Origin: Clostridia bacterium
Lineage (GTDB): Bacteria > Bacillota > Clostridia > TANB77 > CAG-508
Assembly: GCA_017479865.1 (NCBI GenBank)
Contig: JAFVBS010000016.1
Coordinates: forward strand, 1 to 60,658
Direction: 5' to 3'
DNA length: 60,658 nt
Positions 26,775 through 36,113 of this stretch are shown here, one piece after another (positions within the stretch are counted from its first letter, which is position 1; the number at the start of each line of letters is the position of its first letter). The position numbers were made by a program, and so were the translations under genes. The notes beneath the pieces are model-generated. The model did not search any database and was not told the origin of the DNA. It was given only the letters and a program-made list of their open reading frames with translations.

Positions 26775-27987
26775 CTATGACCCAGTTAATAAAAAGCCAG
26801 ATCGAATACTTACATCTACATTTACATCAAAAAAAGCATCTTGATAATTATTTTTCCATTGATATTCCTCAAATTCAGGAAAGGTTTTAAAATTGGTTAA
26901 AGAGTACTTCCCTAGCTCACTGATATCAGAATGAAATTCTTTTGCAGTTCTATAAAGATAATTTTCCATTTGTGTTTTTAAATAATAGGAAGTGGCATCT
27001 TTAATTTTTTGCATTTTTTCTTCATTCCCACCCTCTGTCACATCTTCAATAGAAGAAATTCTAGCATTTGTTTGCAAATTAATGCGAACATATGGGGAAC
27101 CATTAATAATAGAAACCTTAATTTTAGGCTTGCTGTTTGGGGTTAAAAATAAATCAACTACCTTATTTTCATCCTCAGGATTACGAACCGGAATATTACA
27201 ACTTTTTAATTGATTGGTAAGCATTAAGTAATTTAATGTTTCAGTGGCATTGAGCTTTCCTACCATCGTATCATCTTTAAAAACTGCTAAACCAATGTTT
27301 TTAATGCCACCCTCTATATCAAATGTACTCTTATTCTTTTGTTGCAATTCTTCATCTCCGGGAGAACTGGAAGTAGAGATGCTTCCTAAAATAGCAACTG
27401 GTTCAGAGGTTTTGCTAATTAACCTATTAAAAAAATTCACAAGATCTACGTTTGCAGTATACCCTGTATAGTCGGCAGAATTAGGAAGAATTTCATAAAA
27501 TTTTGCTACCAAATTTTCTAAACTTGGTGAAACATTCTTAAGATATTCTTCAGCAGAACAAGTGCTAATAATAATATTGCTATCTGGTCTTATTTGTACA
27601 TTGTTAATTAAAGTAGAAACCTCTTTACGAATGCCCCTTTTAGCAATTTCTTCCGAAAATACAATTACTTTACAATGCGACAAATTAATTTCTTTACTCA
27701 TAAAGGTATTCATCAAATTAAGTGCATTATCAATAGAAACAGCATTAACACTATCCACAATGGTCGGAGCGCTTTCGGAGGAACTATTTTCTCCGACTGG
27801 AACTAGGAATATTAAATTGAAATGTTACTTTTAAATCATCGTTTTCGCCAATATCAATTCCAAGTGCAACTGCGTACGATAAATCATCTACACTTTGAAC
27901 GTGATGTGAATGAGTAAAGGTAATAGTAAAAATAATAACAACGATTAACACAATTAAATATTTATAGCTACGTTTTATCAATTGCAA
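26775..27987 (-). pseudogene. gerAC: Germinant receptor subunit C (GerAC), frameshifted
   Basis: GerAC is the third subunit of the GerA-type receptor in the spore inner membrane. The N-terminal part (27784-27987) reads hydrophobic leader, then VDDLSYAVALGIDIGENDDL and VTFQFNIPSS. The rest (to 26775) continues in the +1 frame with VGENSSSESAPTIVDSVNAV and LSHCKVIVFSEEIAKRGIR, the normal order. The shift lies near 27795-27810, outside any long homopolymer. The leader lacks the lipobox cysteine typical of GerAC. The gene start overlaps the end of gerAB by 20 bp. A sequencing error is the alternative. Confidence 0.85.
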
Positions 27988-29087
27988 TAGCTCCTTTCTT
28001 TTTTTGAATGAAATAATATTTCAAATTTGCCAAAATGAGTAATAATAAGCTAATGGAAAATACCAAAACTAAAATCGTATATTGATAAACATGATTTTCT
28101 AAAAGTCCAAGTTCTTGTAAATTTTTAGGTAATAGTCCAAAGGCAAATACTAAAATAGCAAACAAAGAAGAAAACCATTTGTTATATTGAAGATTTGTTA
28201 TCTTTTGAAAAATAGTAGTAGATAAATATAGCGTAATACTCAAATGCGATACAAAGGAGATAATCCAAATCAGTAAGAAGATGGCATCTAATCTTTGAAA
28301 AAACCTACCAAACTGAACATAGCGAGAGGCAAGATAAAGCGGAAAAACCTCTTCTGAGGTAGCTGCTAATGGAAAAAGGCATAAAAGTGTCATAACGCTA
28401 AGAATTAAAAAAATTGCAGAAATTCCCATAGAGGCAAGGGAAATTTTTTGAAATTTCTTTTGTTCTTTTAAATAAGGTGGCAAAAGGTATAAAAAGCTGA
28501 TACCAGAAAAAGCAAATAAATTTGAAAGTCCACTAAAAAAAGTAGTAGCACATCCATTTCCAAACAAAGGTAACATTCTTTCAAAGGTGAAATTTCCTAA
28601 ATTAGCAATAAAAACAAACAAAATGCTAAATAAAATAAGTGGCATAAAAAATAAATTTGCTTGAATTAGAGAGTTAATGCCTAATTTGTTGGTAATCATC
28701 ATTGTAATTAAAAATAAAAGCATAATAGTAGGCACTGTTGTTTTGGGAAAGAAAATAATTTTTAAGCCTTCTGAAAAACCTCTTAAAAGCACACTAACAG
28801 TAAACATAAAGTACAGTAAAAAGGAAATACCGTAAAAGAATTTTTAGCCATTTTCCTCCCAAGAATTTTGCAATGTCAAAAATATCTAGTTGAGGAAAAT
28901 TTTGAAACAATTTGCCGATTAAAAAGGTAATTCCCAAAATAATAAAACTAATAAAAACAGTATTCAAAACGGCACCAGAGGAAGTAGAACGAATAATTTC
29001 TTTGGGCAAATTTAAAAGAATATGATTAATCATCACTGTTAAAACAAAGGCAATTGCTTCAACATTTCCTATTTTTCTCTCTGTCAT
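27968..29087 (-). pseudogene. gerAB: Germinant receptor subunit B (GerAB), frameshifted
   Basis: GerAB is the APC-type transporter-like subunit that binds germinant. The first 97 residues (28794-29087) begin MTERKIGNVEAIAFVLTVMI. The next 279 (27968-28807) follow in another frame from MFTVSVLLRGFSEGLKIIFF and hold the remaining membrane helices. Removing one base from the four-T run (minus strand, 28834-28837) restores a continuous KILYGISFLLYFMFTVSVLL. The defect is one extra T in a short homopolymer, so replication slippage or an assembly error could both explain it. Confidence 0.87.
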
Positions 29088-29100
29088 CTTTTTATCTCCT

Positions 29101-30831
29101 TTACTTATATTTCCACTTCATACTGATATGCTCTTGAGAAATTTCTTTTTTGGTATTTAAAAAGTCAGGTCTTTTTTCTCTTTTCCAAGTAGGCTCTACA
29201 AAATATCCACCATGATTCAAATTGGTTACAGGACCATAAGGTACCATGTAAGGAACACCAAAGGAATTTAAGCTAAATAACACACATAAATAAACAAACA
29301 TGCCGAGGGCAATTCCAAAAAATCCAGCAATATACCCCAATAAAATAAAAACAAAACGCAAAATTCTTAAATGAAAGCCAAACGAAAAGTCAGGAATGGA
29401 GAAAGAGGCAATTCCCGTAATGGCAACAATAATAATTAAAATAGGACTTACAATTCCTGCACTAACAGCGGCCTGACCTAATACCAAAGCGCCCACAATT
29501 CCTATGGTAGGACCAATAGGGGATGGAACCCTTAAACCTGCTTCACGTATTAGTTCAAAGGAAATTTCCATAATTAAAATTTCAAAAATAATCGGAAAGG
29601 GAACATTTTCACGAGAAGCTAAAATTGAAAAAAGCAACTCTGTTTGCAATAATTCTTGGTGAAAAGTAGCGATTGCCACATATAAACCAGGGAGAAATAG
29701 TGTAATAAAAATGGAGAGCAAACGCAAGAATTTCACAAAATTTGCAAATTGAAACTTTAAGTTGGTATCTTCTGGAGAGGAGATAAAGTCAAAGAATGTT
29801 GCTGGCATAATTAAGGCATAGGGGTTTCCATTTACCAAAACAACTACTCTACCACTATACAAGTATTTCGAAGATTTATCAGGTCTTTCTGTTGATATAA
29901 TTTGAGGAACGCTATACTTGTGGCTCTCTTCGATTAACTGTTCTAATTCTCCTGAAGAAAGCAAAGAATCAATTTCCAAATTATTGAGACGATATTTTAC
30001 TTCTGCCACCAAATCATCGTTAGCAATATTTTTCATATAGCAAATAGCACATTTTGTTTTACTAATTTTTCCCACATCAATGCTTTCAATTACTAAGTTT
30101 TCATTATTGACAGTTCTTCTTAGCTGAGAGGTATTCGTTCTAATATTTTCCACAAAAGCCTCTTGAGGTCCTTTGATAATTACTTCGTTATTGGGAGTGT
30201 TTACTTCTCTTTGCTTAAAGCCTTTTACATCAATGTCGAAAGCAAGGGCGAGAGTGTCAACAAAGAGTAAGCAATTTCCCATATTCACACTACGAAAGGC
30301 TGAATCGAAATCAGTTACTTTTTTGACATTGTTTTGAGGAAGTAAGCAGTCAAACACATAATTTTCTAAATCAAATTTCTTTACCCTGCGTACGGTGATA
30401 TTATTTGTTTTAGCCTCTGATACGATTTGATTTTGATCACCATCAAAAATATTGGCTCTGTTGCGTAGCATAAGGGCTTGTAATACATTATTATTAATCA
30501 GTTGAGAATCTACCATACCATCAATGAAAAAAAGTAAAGCCTTGTACTGTCTGTTTCTAGCACTCAAAGTAAACTCACGGAGAATAATATCACTATTAAT
30601 CATTGCATTATACTTTACTTTTAAATATTCTATTGTGACAGTAAGACTAGAAAAAATCTCTTTTGCTTCGAAAATTTTTTGATTTTCCTGCAACTGATTG
30701 GTATTCAAAGAATTAGTATCTTTACTTTCTTCGTAGGGGCTAGCAAGGGTAAAGCTATCTTCTATTTGATTTGAACGATTAAAAAATTGTTTCAACTTCT
30801 CAATGAATTTGCTTTGCTTTTCTTGTTCCAT
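29101..30831 (-). CDS. gerAA: Germinant receptor subunit A (GerAA)
   Basis: GerAA oligomerises into the germinant-gated ion channel of spores. The 576-residue protein has a soluble N-terminal region with FSSLTVTIEYLKVKYN and IIRGPQEAFVENIRTNTSQL (here VIIKGPQEAFVENIRTNTSQ), then SGRVVVLVNGNPYALIMPAT and about five C-terminal membrane helices with GLRVPSPIGPTIGIVGALVL. I start at the ATG at 30831, preceded by GGAG at 9-nt spacing; an upstream in-frame start adds 21 residues without a good site. It is intact, unlike its partners. Confidence 0.94.
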   Translation of the reverse strand: MEQEKQSKFIEKLKQFFNRSNQIEDSFTLASPYEESKDTNSLNTNQLQENQKIFEAKEIFSSLTVTIEYLKVKYNAMINSDIILREFTLSARNRQYKALLFFIDGMVDSQLINNNVLQALMLRNRANIFDGDQNQIVSEAKTNNITVRRVKKFDLENYVFDCLLPQNNVKKVTDFDSAFRSVNMGNCLLFVDTLALAFDIDVKGFKQREVNTPNNEVIIKGPQEAFVENIRTNTSQLRRTVNNENLVIESIDVGKISKTKCAICYMKNIANDDLVAEVKYRLNNLEIDSLLSSGELEQLIEESHKYSVPQIISTERPDKSSKYLYSGRVVVLVNGNPYALIMPATFFDFISSPEDTNLKFQFANFVKFLRLLSIFITLFLPGLYVAIATFHQELLQTELLFSILASRENVPFPIIFEILIMEISFELIREAGLRVPSPIGPTIGIVGALVLGQAAVSAGIVSPILIIIVAITGIASFSIPDFSFGFHLRILRFVFILLGYIAGFFGIALGMFVYLCVLFSLNSFGVPYMVPYGPVTNLNHGGYFVEPTWKREKRPDFLNTKKEISQEHISMKWKYK

Positions 30832-30945
30832 AAACAATAACTCCATAAAAATAAATTTAATGTTATTGTTTTCTAAAAAAGAAAAAATATTCAAAAATAA
30901 GTAATTTTGTCATTATGAATAACTAATTCAAAATCATGTTACAGA

Positions 30946-32153: not shown

Positions 32154-34394
32154 ATGTTAAAGCACATGAGATTTTACGAAAGGGGAGCAGGAAAGCAGTT
32201 TTTGGGTATTTTACTATTGATTATCCTTTTATCATATATCATTTTAGAGATTTTTCCTGTAGAGTCAAAAGCTTCATATACCAGTAAATTTAAAGACTAT
32301 CCAGGATATGAAATGTTAATCAAAGACTTACAAGTGGCTCATCCAAATTGGGAGTTTGAAATTTTAGAAACTGGACTTGACTGGGCAGATGTTATCAAAA
32401 ACGAAACTACGGCAAAGCATGGCCGCAACGTTACCAATAAGAATTATGGAGAATGGTATTGCAGAACTTGCGGAAATAAAAAACAATATGAAAAAGGATG
32501 GTACTGTGCTTCTGAAACAACGGTTGCTTACTATATGGACCCACGAAATTCATTATTTGAAGACTATATTTTTCAATTTGAACAATTAACTTATGATGAT
32601 ACCATTCAAACGAAGGCAGGAGTAGAGACAATTATTTCAGATTGCAATTATTTACAAGGAAATATAAAATATTATGATCCTGTATCTAAAACAACTAAAA
32701 CAATGGAAAAAACATATGCAGATGCAATTATGGAGGCAGCAAAAAAATGGAATATTAGCCCTTACCATTTAGCTTCTAGAATGAGGCAAGAGCAAGGGCC
32801 AGGGAAAGAAACTTCATTAATTAGTGGCACATGGGAAGGTGAGAAGGGAGAATATAAAGGACTATATAACTATTTTAATGTCAATGCTTATGGAGAAACA
32901 ACAACAGATATTATTGTAAATGGCCTTAAATGGGCACAGAAAAAAGGATGGACAAACCCACAAGCAGCAATTTATGGAGGAGCTGAATTATTAGCAAACG
33001 ATTACATCAAAGGAGGGCAAGATACACTTTATCTTCAAAAATTTGATGTGGTTGATGGTGGAGATGGCTATTATTCATGGCAGTATATGACAAATGTATC
33101 TGCCACAAAATCAGAGGCAGAAAAAATTAGAGAAGCATATCGCAACATGGGAATGTTAAGCAAAGAGTCCAAAATTAAATTTAAAATACCGGTATACAAA
33201 AATATGCCAACGGATAGATGCCCTTTGCCAGGACTTAGCACAATTGTCACAGAAAATGTAGAAGTTAACGCAGATAAGGCTATTGTGCGAGGAGGAAAAG
33301 GTACAACTTATTCAGAAATTGCCAACCTGACAAAAGGAACGAAAATTTTAAGAATTGAATTAGACAGCCAAAAAGATAAAGACGGAATTTACTGGGACAA
33401 AGTAGTAGTTGGTAATCATGAAAAAACCAAAATTGGATATCTTTCTCGTGAGTTAATTACTAAAATTACAGACATAACAAACAGTAATGAAAAATATATT
33501 GTATCAAGTAATACTAATTTTAGAAATGGACCTGGAACACAAAATACAACTATTATCAAACTATTATCTGCAGGGCAAGTGGTAACTGTAATTGAAAAGG
33601 ACCAATACAAAAATGTTAATAAAGAAGACTGGTATCGTGTTAAACTTTCGGATGGTACACAGGGGTATGTTGGAGCGGGATATATTGAACCGTATAATGA
33701 AAATAGCAATACTTATGATAGAGTAAAAGTGGTATGCAGTGATGGAATTAATATTCGTAAGGAACCTGGTAAAAATGCTATTATTTTAAAAGCAGTAGCC
33801 CAAGGAACTATTCTTACAAGAACGCAGAAAGAATCCTCCACAAAGGACGATTATACTTGGGATAAAGTAACAACCTCAAGTGGAATTGTTGGCTATGTGG
33901 TAAGAGAGGATCCTAAAACAAAAAAACAATGGATAGAGTCATTGACGAGTGCAAGTACAACAACCAACAATACTAAGCCGAATACACCTAATAGTACAGC
34001 AGAAACTACTACTATTATAGGAACAGGCTTCAAAACAAATGAAACACAACTAGTGTGTCAGCCAAATATTACAGTAGAAAATATTCAAAAAGTTGCCAAA
34101 GATGCTGTAATAAAAAAAGACAAAGAAACAATTGTAGCAGGGAATGTGGGTACAGGATACACTGTTACATACAATGGAAAAACCTATACGATTGTTGTAA
34201 AAGGTGATGTCACAGGCACAGGAACAGTTACAACATTGGATGCAGCAAGAGTACTAAAAAATGCGGCAGGCAAATATAGCTTGGAAAACGAATATTTATT
34301 GGCAGCTGATGTAACAGAAGATGGAAAAGTTACAACATTGGATGCAGCAAGAATATTAAAAATTGCAGCCGGAAAGCTCAAATTGGAAGTATAA
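32154..34394 (+). CDS. Secreted N-acetylglucosaminidase with SH3 and dockerin-like domains
   Basis: The 746-residue protein is a predicted peptidoglycan hydrolase. Residues about 15-36 form a signal-anchor helix. The region to about 360 is a glucosaminidase domain with PYHLASRMRQEQGPGKETSL, including the likely catalytic glutamate, and GLYNYFNVNAYG. Three SH3-type repeats follow (FRNGPGTQNTTIIK, NIRKEPGKNAIILK). The C-terminus has two dockerin-type repeats at 684-707 and 717-741 (TTLDAARVLKNAAGK, TTLDAARILKIAAGK), with several calcium ligands replaced. AAGGAGG precedes the ATG. The next gene encodes a cohesin-like protein, so the pair may assemble on the cell surface. Confidence 0.85.
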   Translation: MLKHMRFYERGAGKQFLGILLLIILLSYIILEIFPVESKASYTSKFKDYPGYEMLIKDLQVAHPNWEFEILETGLDWADVIKNETTAKHGRNVTNKNYGEWYCRTCGNKKQYEKGWYCASETTVAYYMDPRNSLFEDYIFQFEQLTYDDTIQTKAGVETIISDCNYLQGNIKYYDPVSKTTKTMEKTYADAIMEAAKKWNISPYHLASRMRQEQGPGKETSLISGTWEGEKGEYKGLYNYFNVNAYGETTTDIIVNGLKWAQKKGWTNPQAAIYGGAELLANDYIKGGQDTLYLQKFDVVDGGDGYYSWQYMTNVSATKSEAEKIREAYRNMGMLSKESKIKFKIPVYKNMPTDRCPLPGLSTIVTENVEVNADKAIVRGGKGTTYSEIANLTKGTKILRIELDSQKDKDGIYWDKVVVGNHEKTKIGYLSRELITKITDITNSNEKYIVSSNTNFRNGPGTQNTTIIKLLSAGQVVTVIEKDQYKNVNKEDWYRVKLSDGTQGYVGAGYIEPYNENSNTYDRVKVVCSDGINIRKEPGKNAIILKAVAQGTILTRTQKESSTKDDYTWDKVTTSSGIVGYVVREDPKTKKQWIESLTSASTTTNNTKPNTPNSTAETTTIIGTGFKTNETQLVCQPNITVENIQKVAKDAVIKKDKETIVAGNVGTGYTVTYNGKTYTIVVKGDVTGTGTVTTLDAARVLKNAAGKYSLENEYLLAADVTEDGKVTTLDAARILKIAAGKLKLEV

Positions 34395-34431
34395 TAAAAT
34401 AAAAAAGTATAAATTAAGAGAGGAAAATATT

Positions 34432-36009
34432 ATGAGAATATATAAGAAAATTGGAATATTACTTTTAATTTTAACATTGATACTTACTATATTTTATTCA
34501 AGACCAACGATGGCGGTCAGCACAACATTAAGTGCTAGTAGCACTAGTGCAACATCGGGAGAAAATTTTTCTATAACGGTAAGCTCTTCGGTAAAATTAT
34601 CTGGTTGGACAGTTTCAGTATCTAATAATGGAGGCTGTGAAGTTGTAAGTGCTTCAGGGGGAGAGGTAACTGGTAGCAAGGTTTATGGTACAAACTTAAA
34701 TGGCGCTACAACACTTGCTACATATACTTTTAAAGCACCAATAGTTGATAAAGATACTAAATATACAATTAATTTTATAGGAACTGCTATGGGAGATGCT
34801 ACAGATAAAGTGAATGCAGTCAATGATGCTTCTTGTAGCACAATAGTAACTGTAAAAGCAAAAATTACAACTCCTTCTAATAAAGGCAATAATGGAGAAA
34901 ATACAACTACTGGCACAAAAACAGGAAATAATACTGCTAGCAATAACACAGCAACAGAATACAAACCAACCTTTACTTCTGTAAATGAAACAGTTTATGC
35001 AACAAATGAGGTAAATGTTAGAGAAAGCTATTCTACTACTAGTAAAAAATTAGGAGCCTTAAAAAAGGGAGATAGCATTACAAGAACAGGAAAAAGTACA
35101 GACGGAAAATGGAGCAAGGTGACGTATCAAGGAAAAACAGCATACATATCTAGTGCCTATTTAACAACAACAAAACCAGAAGTGAAAAAATCTGGTAATA
35201 AAAATTTAGCTTCTCTTACCATAAAAGGAGTAGAACTTGGTCCAGCTTTTAATAAAGAAACAACACAATATACAGCAACAGTATCAAATGAAATTACAAA
35301 GTTAGAGATTGATGCAATACCAGAGGATAGCAAAGCAAAAGTAGAAATTACAGATAATAATGAACTGAAAACAGGAGATAACATTATCAAAATAAAAGTA
35401 ACAGCAGAGGATGATACTGTAAGAACTTACATGCTAACTGTTACCAAAAATGAAAACAAAGAGACTATAGAAAATAACAAGTCAACTAATAGTGATGAAT
35501 TACAATTAACTAACTTGAAAATTAAAGGAGTTGACTTTGAACAAGGATTTAATCCTTCTATCTATACTTATGAATTAACGCTCAATAATGCAAAGGTTAA
35601 GCGCTTAGAAATTACTGCTACACCAAATCAGGAAAATGCACAAGTTGAAATTATTGGAAATGAAAACTTTAAAGCGGGAGAAAATATTATTACTATTCTC
35701 TTAACTTCGGCAGATGGAACAAAAACAACAAACTATCAAATTAAGGCCAATCTTCCAGAGGGTACAGCGGAGACAAAAAGAGAAAATGAAACAACGCAAA
35801 CGATGTTTTATGTCATTATTGGTATTGTAGTTGCTACAATTATTATTGCAATTGCTTTATTAATTAGTCGTCATCGCAAAAATATGGATATGGATACAGA
35901 AGATGACGATAATGAAATGATAATAGAAGAAAATAGGGCAGACGAAATACTTGGTATTTCGGATACAGAAGAGACTAAAAAACGTTCAAAAGGAAAGCAT
36001 TCTAAATAA
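34432..36009 (+). CDS. Membrane-anchored cohesin-like surface protein with SH3 and cadherin-like domains
   Basis: The 525-residue protein starts MRIYKKIGILLLILTLILTI, a signal peptide. Then come a cohesin-like beta domain (SATSGENFSITVSSSVKLSG, then VSASGGEVTG), a Thr/Asn linker, an SH3-type domain (NEVNVRESYSTTSKKLGALK) and two cadherin-like beta-sandwich repeats (LASLTIKGVELGPAFNKET and LTNLKIKGVDFEQGFNPS). A C-terminal helix (MFYVIIGIVVATIIIAIALL) and a basic/acidic tail anchor it. The start is the ATG at 34432 after GAGAGG; the frame is open further up into the preceding gene. The cohesin assignment is moderate; it could be another Ig-like domain. Confidence 0.75.
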   Translation: MRIYKKIGILLLILTLILTIFYSRPTMAVSTTLSASSTSATSGENFSITVSSSVKLSGWTVSVSNNGGCEVVSASGGEVTGSKVYGTNLNGATTLATYTFKAPIVDKDTKYTINFIGTAMGDATDKVNAVNDASCSTIVTVKAKITTPSNKGNNGENTTTGTKTGNNTASNNTATEYKPTFTSVNETVYATNEVNVRESYSTTSKKLGALKKGDSITRTGKSTDGKWSKVTYQGKTAYISSAYLTTTKPEVKKSGNKNLASLTIKGVELGPAFNKETTQYTATVSNEITKLEIDAIPEDSKAKVEITDNNELKTGDNIIKIKVTAEDDTVRTYMLTVTKNENKETIENNKSTNSDELQLTNLKIKGVDFEQGFNPSIYTYELTLNNAKVKRLEITATPNQENAQVEIIGNENFKAGENIITILLTSADGTKTTNYQIKANLPEGTAETKRENETTQTMFYVIIGIVVATIIIAIALLISRHRKNMDMDTEDDDNEMIIEENRADEILGISDTEETKKRSKGKHSK

Positions 36010-36050
36010 TACTACTCAAACGAGAACATTGAGATAAAAAAGAAAATGAA

Positions 36051-36089
36051 AAAATTCAATCAATTACTTGCAATTGATTGAATTTTTTT
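36051..36089 (+). terminator. Rho-independent terminator after the surface-protein pair
   Basis: AAAATTCAATCAATT (36051-36065) and AATTGATTGAATTTT (36072-36086) form a perfect 15-bp stem with loop ACTTGC, then more T. It lies 25 bp before tRNA-Thr. Confidence 0.9.
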
Positions 36090-36113
36090 ATATAATTATA
36101 AAGGTTCAGGTAT

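Follow-up and report, generated by a model that had tools for sequence, protein, structure and literature searches.

Cohesin–dockerin pairs are known for assembling polysaccharide-degrading enzymes. Could such a pair also hold a cell-wall hydrolase on the cell that makes it? The question is raised by two adjacent genes in contig JAFVBS010000016.1 of the Clostridia bacterium assembly GCA_017479865.1, a stretch of 60,658 nucleotides that is called the window here. A sequence-only reading had paired a dockerin-tagged hydrolase with a membrane protein bearing a cohesin-like domain; we recovered both open reading frames where it had placed them, and the observation as a whole was confirmed. We consider it quite probable that this two-gene unit encodes a peptidoglycan glucosaminidase together with its own membrane receptor, joined through dockerin and cohesin.

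32154..34394, + strand: gene 1, 746 amino acids; GH73/SagB-like glucosaminidase, either secreted or anchored in the membrane, that carries SH3b domains, an X-like module and, at its C-terminus, a dockerin
34432..36009, + strand: gene 2, 525 amino acids from the ATG at 34432; predicted membrane-anchored cohesin receptor

The receptor domain has a predicted cohesin fold

The gene 2 product opens with a signal peptide and a cohesin-fold domain; an SH3b domain and two cadherin-like domains follow, and a membrane helix with a charged tail closes it. Pfam, hydropathy and structure prediction together give this architecture, which the earlier reading had described as a cohesin-like domain, an SH3 domain, two cadherin-like repeats and a C-terminal helix.

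34513..34863, + strand: cohesin-fold domain; no Pfam match, structure predicted
35008..35166, + strand: SH3b domain, Pfam SH3_3
35206..35751, + strand: two cadherin-like beta-sandwich domains, Pfam Cadherin-like
35803..35866, + strand: C-terminal membrane helix, then a charged cytosolic tail (hydropathy and sequence)

Searches of the N-terminal domain with PF00963, Pfam and NCBIfam gave no cohesin match, and weak matches of gene 2 to unrelated families (TMEM51, DUF4064 and others) were taken as noise. AlphaFold2, run on window positions 34501–34881 and given 41 aligned sequences (that of the window and those of its syntenic orthologues), returned a model with a predicted local distance difference test score (pLDDT) of 93.9 and a predicted template modelling score (pTM) of 0.85. 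Its first Foldseek matches were cohesins (2xdh, 2vn5), with modest TM-scores of 0.57 to 0.63. In VIA-align the best 26 PDB rows were all cohesins at Z 11.6 to 9.8, led by 2w1n, 2jh2 and 1g1k, with unrelated beta-sandwiches beginning at Z 9.6 and running downward. Cohesins also lead the structural matches of the orthologous domain in L151, a relative of the same genus. The window domain is shorter than usual cohesins. Profile comparison linked it moderately to other cohesins of the same family, with 89% probability for the sortase-anchored and 7% for the cadherin-linked ones. A further link to the family's cohesins through iterated hidden Markov models (HMMs) was not relied on; because such models might have drifted, the assignment rests on structure. 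Structure prediction had been named beforehand as the check on this domain, and by its modelled fold (26 of 26 best rows) the domain is a cohesin.

The dockerin repeats are symmetric, and a matched pair from a relative is modelled as one assembly

The hydrolase was said to end in two dockerin-like repeats, and this is borne out. Dockerin_1 (PF00404) matches residues 683–734 with an E-value of 1.4e-9 and 38.4 bits, above the Pfam cut-off of 22.9, and the repeats lie at residues 685–706 and 719–740.

34200..34385, + strand: dockerin, residues 683–744
34206..34271, + strand: dockerin repeat 1, DVTGTGTVTTLDAARVLKNAAG, residues 685–706; calcium loop degenerate at positions 3 and 5
34308..34373, + strand: dockerin repeat 2, DVTEDGKVTTLDAARILKIAAG, residues 719–740; recognition residues nearly those of repeat 1

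In the window protein, 82% of the recognition residues are identical between the two repeats. Dockerins across the family behave alike: recognition residues agree at 0.80 between repeats within a protein and at 0.26 between proteins, as would be expected if a dockerin had two equivalent faces for binding. Type I cellulosomal dockerins have such faces (PMC12484212). Concerted evolution of the repeats through gene conversion is unlikely, since the non-ligand loop residues are far less alike than the recognition residues (0.49 within proteins versus 0.34 between them). In sequence, the window dockerin thus has a two-fold symmetric recognition surface, which could allow dual binding.

A single chain allowed the two partners to be modelled together. 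In L151, genes 1 and 2 share one frame with a TAG between them. Reading that TAG as Gln gives a fusion of X-dockerin, a linker that includes the signal peptide, and cohesin; this is a modelling device, and no read-through is claimed. AlphaFold2 gave the fusion a pLDDT of 91.4 and a pTM of 0.81, which are global scores for one matched pair. By our own estimate, two domains of ~120 residues without a fixed relation in a 275-residue chain would score a pTM of ~0.5, so a definite domain arrangement is predicted. Of the tether proposed for a peptidoglycan hydrolase, the cohesin fold and a real dockerin therefore stand, and the comparative and modelling evidence for their partnership is strong; binding as such is a prediction.

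The enzyme resembles SagB-type glucosaminidases

By its predicted catalytic glutamate and its similarity to solved members, the product of gene 1 appears to be a GH73/SagB-like glucosaminidase.

32187..32273, + strand: N-terminal hydrophobic segment, residues ~12–40; signal peptide or signal anchor (hydropathy and sequence)
32298..33203, + strand: GH73-like catalytic domain, residues 49–350
32790..32792, + strand: predicted catalytic Glu213; its aligned counterpart in AtlE is the catalytic glutamate replaced by Ala in PDB 4pi8
33267..33920, + strand: three SH3b domains, residues 372–437, 450–513 and 528–589
34035..34196, + strand: X-like module adjoining the dockerin, residues 628–681; folded in the model of the L151 orthologue

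Glu213 is invariant in an alignment of 18 sequences. The catalytic domain matches the solved glucosaminidases AtlE, AtlA and SagB, best of all AtlE (phmmer 1.2e-11), and scores 54.8 bits with the SagB model, below its cut-off of 425. Pfam also recognises SH3_3 in gene 1.

Dockerin and receptor domain vary together

Between species the N-terminal domain of the gene 2 product differs strongly: some versions are cohesin-like, others resemble the Ig-like domains of bacteria, and the dockerin changes along with it. The dockerin motif VTTxDAARxLK accompanies the window-type receptor domain, DARDSxRILK the receptors of L143, L154 and L166, SxDYVxIKNYIM the Ig-like forms, and SADLLAIQRHLL the SWDL form.

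Across 56 clusters, distances between dockerins correlate with distances between the gene 2 N-terminal domains (Mantel r 0.62, against a maximum of 0.18 in 2000 permutations), and the partial r remains 0.615 once GH73 and cadherin distances are removed. Within the same proteins the dockerin correlates with its own GH73 domain at r 0.10, and the N-terminal domain with its own cadherin domains at r 0.20. Among the 31 clusters with all modules, r is 0.75, versus controls of 0.32 for the dockerin with the adjoining X module and 0.20 for the N-terminal domain with the SH3b domain that follows it. Cut into 27-residue pieces, the N-terminal domain has a mean r of 0.62 with the dockerin and the GH73 domain one of 0.19. 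Thinning to distantly related hydrolases leaves r at 0.68 (n=17) and 0.52 (n=10). When dockerins were classed against GH73 or cadherin domains, the adjusted Rand index (ARI) never exceeded 0.08. This co-variation is the strongest evidence for dockerin–receptor pairing.

As a separate observation, the receptor N-terminal domains of L137–L142, L145–L147, L155, L156, L165 and others are closer by sequence to bacterial Ig-like domains than to cohesins, with a dockerin motif of its own for each class.

Several points weigh against a tethered glucosaminidase. The first calcium loop of the window dockerin, DVTGTG..D (D-T-T-D), is without the usual N3 and D5. The catalytic domain has no match to PF01832, the Pfam Glucosaminidase family, at E≤1; because it falls outside that family, glucosaminidase activity is deduced from homology. 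The fusion model depends on a stop codon read as Gln, on a signal peptide as linker and on a relative in place of the window. Unsupervised dockerin and receptor classes coincide at an ARI of 0.95 with eight clusters, and at 0.13 to 0.61 with other cluster numbers. Permutation p-values are optimistic because close relatives share history. Dockerin and receptor domain are also adjacent in the DNA, so linkage could give part of the co-variation.

Loop 2, DVTEDG..D (D-T-D-D), lacks N3 only, so the description of both loops as degenerate is right for repeat 1, where two ligands are gone, and only mildly so for repeat 2; neither loop of the window dockerin keeps all its ligands. Of 56 relatives, 33 have canonical sequences in both loops, as does the L151 orthologue (DINGDG and DVNGDG). 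Calcium binding is therefore likely the ancestral state, its loss partial and local, and the suggestion that calcium-independent binding characterises the system is weakened.

Linkage can be pressed further: chromosomal adjacency and shared recombination might produce the co-variation with no binding needed, given that no other domains of the two genes lie so near each other and that the intergenic gaps are mostly short. The signal peptide lies between the two, and correlates with the dockerin at a background-like r of 0.24 versus 0.62 for the receptor pieces, although signal peptides, short and saturating, make an imperfect test. Neither the flanking X module nor the SH3b domain tracks the partner, and the symmetric repeats and the fusion model point to binding. 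We give this explanation only a very slight chance, and read the co-variation as probable selection for a matched interface, with linkage a minor rival.

The gene pair is conserved across the family

A relative of gene 2 occurs in 94 of 98 genomes from the same family; dockerins occur in 92, and 80 contain cohesins that pass the Pfam cut-off. The dockerin gene stands directly before the membrane gene in all 20 of the window-type orthologous clusters. A second set comprised 80 loci taken from species genomes, almost all of which are assemblies from uncultured organisms, with some genomes common to both collections. There a cadherin-type membrane gene adjoins 53 of 58 dockerin-bearing GH73 genes, proportions that are biased by the dockerin-bearing query with which the loci were found, although the query does not explain the association itself. 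It adjoins none of the 20 GH73 genes that lack a dockerin in the same open reading frame, three of which (L151, L201 and L215) are split genes with the dockerin in a second frame. Because the arrangement recurs in 20 of 20 and in 53 orthologous clusters, it is not due to chance.

The hydrolase or dockerin frame is split in two in L096/L151, L106, L111, L118, L201 and L215, through assembly error, decay or phase variation.

The layout in the window is operon-like. Gene 2 follows gene 1 on the same (+) strand after 37 nucleotides and most likely starts at the ATG at 34432, which is preceded by an AGAGAGG ribosome-binding site; a longer alternative from 34363 would overlap gene 1. A terminator scan requiring G-C pairs in the stem found none between the genes or directly after them, and missed the AT-rich repeat below.

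36046..36091, + strand: AT-rich inverted repeat with 20-nucleotide arms and a T run, 3' of gene 2; terminator-like end of the two-gene unit

A second hydrolase cluster, and no cellulosome

The genome spans ~1.0 Mb in 28 contigs and is 93% complete. Profile search finds two dockerins in it, both on GH73 hydrolases: the search for further dockerins that the earlier reading had suggested thus added one, likewise on a GH73 hydrolase in a cohesin-containing cluster.

L004:5465-9720, on contig C23 of this genome: the second cluster, four genes encoding a cohesin-like protein with the sorting signal MPKTG, a sortase, a GH73 hydrolase with SH3b and dockerin, and a membrane protein with two cadherin-like domains

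Both clusters hold a cohesin and both recur across the family; a PF00963 search of the genome returns one weak cohesin. In this genome, as in L116 and L119, the two-cadherin membrane gene of the C23-type cluster has no cohesin, whereas most relatives' orthologues still carry one. The wall-anchored C23 cohesin may be a further docking site.

That second cohesin, with its sortase-like signal and a sortase gene, also raises the alternative that the window dockerin binds elsewhere, chiefly to C23, and that the gene 2 domain, which Pfam does not recognise, is a spacer or binds something else. The recognition residues differ, however, with VTTLDAARxLK in the window dockerin versus INSTDLLVLQRHIL in that of C23, and the dockerin co-varies with the gene 2 domain and not with the remainder of the locus. 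Binding outside the pair is in our view very unlikely.

A minimal cell-wall cellulosome, as the sequence-only reading had put it, does not fit this genome. With two dockerins only, it shows no multi-cohesin scaffoldin, no carbohydrate-binding module (CBM) and no set of enzymes, and a cellulosome was rejected. The system is a cohesin–dockerin pair on peptidoglycan hydrolases.

Elsewhere in the genus, further dockerin proteins with NPCBM, F5/8, LRR, CAP or transglutaminase domains lie beside cohesins; the wider system is therefore not confined to wall hydrolases, though it is so confined in this genome. L216:1678-15100 (same genus, G054 C9) has five consecutive dockerin genes with six dockerin modules adjoining one PF00963 cohesin protein, the dockerin genes carrying Big_2, LRR with transglutaminase, and LRR with CAP. 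In L134, L135, L222 and L223, proteins of ~1450–1620 amino acids end in a dockerin, each adjoining a small cohesin protein, mostly LPXTG-anchored; three of the four have NPCBM and F5/8 type C domains, L222 being outside the domain scan.

A predicted mechanism for holding the enzyme on the producer

In the mechanism we propose, the glucosaminidase would be exported, its SH3b domains probably holding the wall. Its X-dockerin would plug into the receptor's N-terminal cohesin-fold domain, which the SH3b and two cadherin-like domains would raise over a single membrane helix. Docking would put the enzyme where new glycan strands appear, on the membrane side of the wall, and would retain it on the producing cell; peptidoglycan may be gripped by the SH3b domains of both proteins. 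Two near-identical dockerin faces would permit either orientation of binding. Joint divergence would give a private fit for each lineage and for each cluster within one genome.

Such a fit may serve the insulation of paralogous pairs only, or may also retain the enzyme on kin cells. Tentatively, and we think it unlikely, a private and fast-changing fit may be a self-recognition code, by which a hydrolase would return only to its producer and kin while foreign hydrolases are kept off, and receptors would spread until many look Ig-like, each with its own dockerin type.

A real tether could also carry an offensive or scavenging lysin directed at the peptidoglycan of other bacteria in place of a housekeeping enzyme. 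In its private fit the pair is like systems by which secreted goods stay with their producer, and the relatives come largely from animal gut assemblies. Near-universality in the family, a SagB-like catalytic domain, the SH3b domains that both proteins carry and the membrane location of the receptor are better matched by self-wall remodelling, and we regard a lysin as distinctly doubtful.

Relation to known systems

The pair resembles the surface anchoring of cellulosomes (ScaE and S-layer homology (SLH) anchors; PMC12484212) in having a dockerin on the enzyme and a cohesin on a surface-anchored protein, and type I dockerins in its two-fold symmetric repeats. It differs in its peptidoglycan glucosaminidase, one cohesin per receptor, a transmembrane anchor, and the lack of CBM and multi-cohesin scaffoldin. 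The Limousia mucinolysome (PMC12997984) and the R. bromii amylosome (PMC5814915) likewise use cohesin–dockerin pairing beyond cellulose, with sortase-anchored cohesins, in gut bacteria. Those systems gather many glycan-degrading enzymes for feeding, whereas this genome pairs wall hydrolases only, one enzyme per receptor. Among cohesins of solved structure, Clostridium perfringens modules (PDB 2w1n, 2jh2, 2vo8) come nearest to the window domain and to that of its orthologue; they are single cohesins with no scaffold. From the PDB titles, we take these to be carried by secreted glycoside hydrolases of families 84 and 33. There the cohesin is on a glycoside hydrolase, whereas in the window it is on a membrane receptor for a peptidoglycan hydrolase.

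In the Staphylococcus aureus SagB–SpdC peptidoglycan release complex, the membrane protein SpdC holds and orients a glucosaminidase (PMC10581084). The window pair would likewise have a glucosaminidase of the same catalytic type held by a membrane protein; SpdC is CAAX-protease-like, however, and its contact is not cohesin–dockerin. Gene 2 has no CAAX-protease-like Pfam match and, with one C-terminal membrane helix besides the signal peptide, is not multi-pass. Cohesin and dockerin would do for this hydrolase what SpdC does for SagB.

Within the open literature, we found no description of dockerins on peptidoglycan hydrolases or autolysins. Cohesin–dockerin use beyond cellulose is already known; its service to peptidoglycan hydrolases is apparently new. 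For a family of gut Clostridia with small genomes, this offers a testable explanation of how a dangerous enzyme is kept in check: the pair appears to fix peptidoglycan hydrolases to the envelope of the very cell that produces them. The 56 matched pairs found in nature, whose dockerins are symmetric and whose recognition classes differ greatly, form a data set on how interface specificity switches and a source of possibly insulated modules for protein engineering.

Neighbouring genes

Upstream of the pair, positions 26775–30894 on the minus strand of the window hold GerA/GerC-type spore germination genes, in a genome of ~1.0 Mb. The transporter-like middle gene of this group is present as two overlapping pieces, 27968–28807 and 28794–29087.

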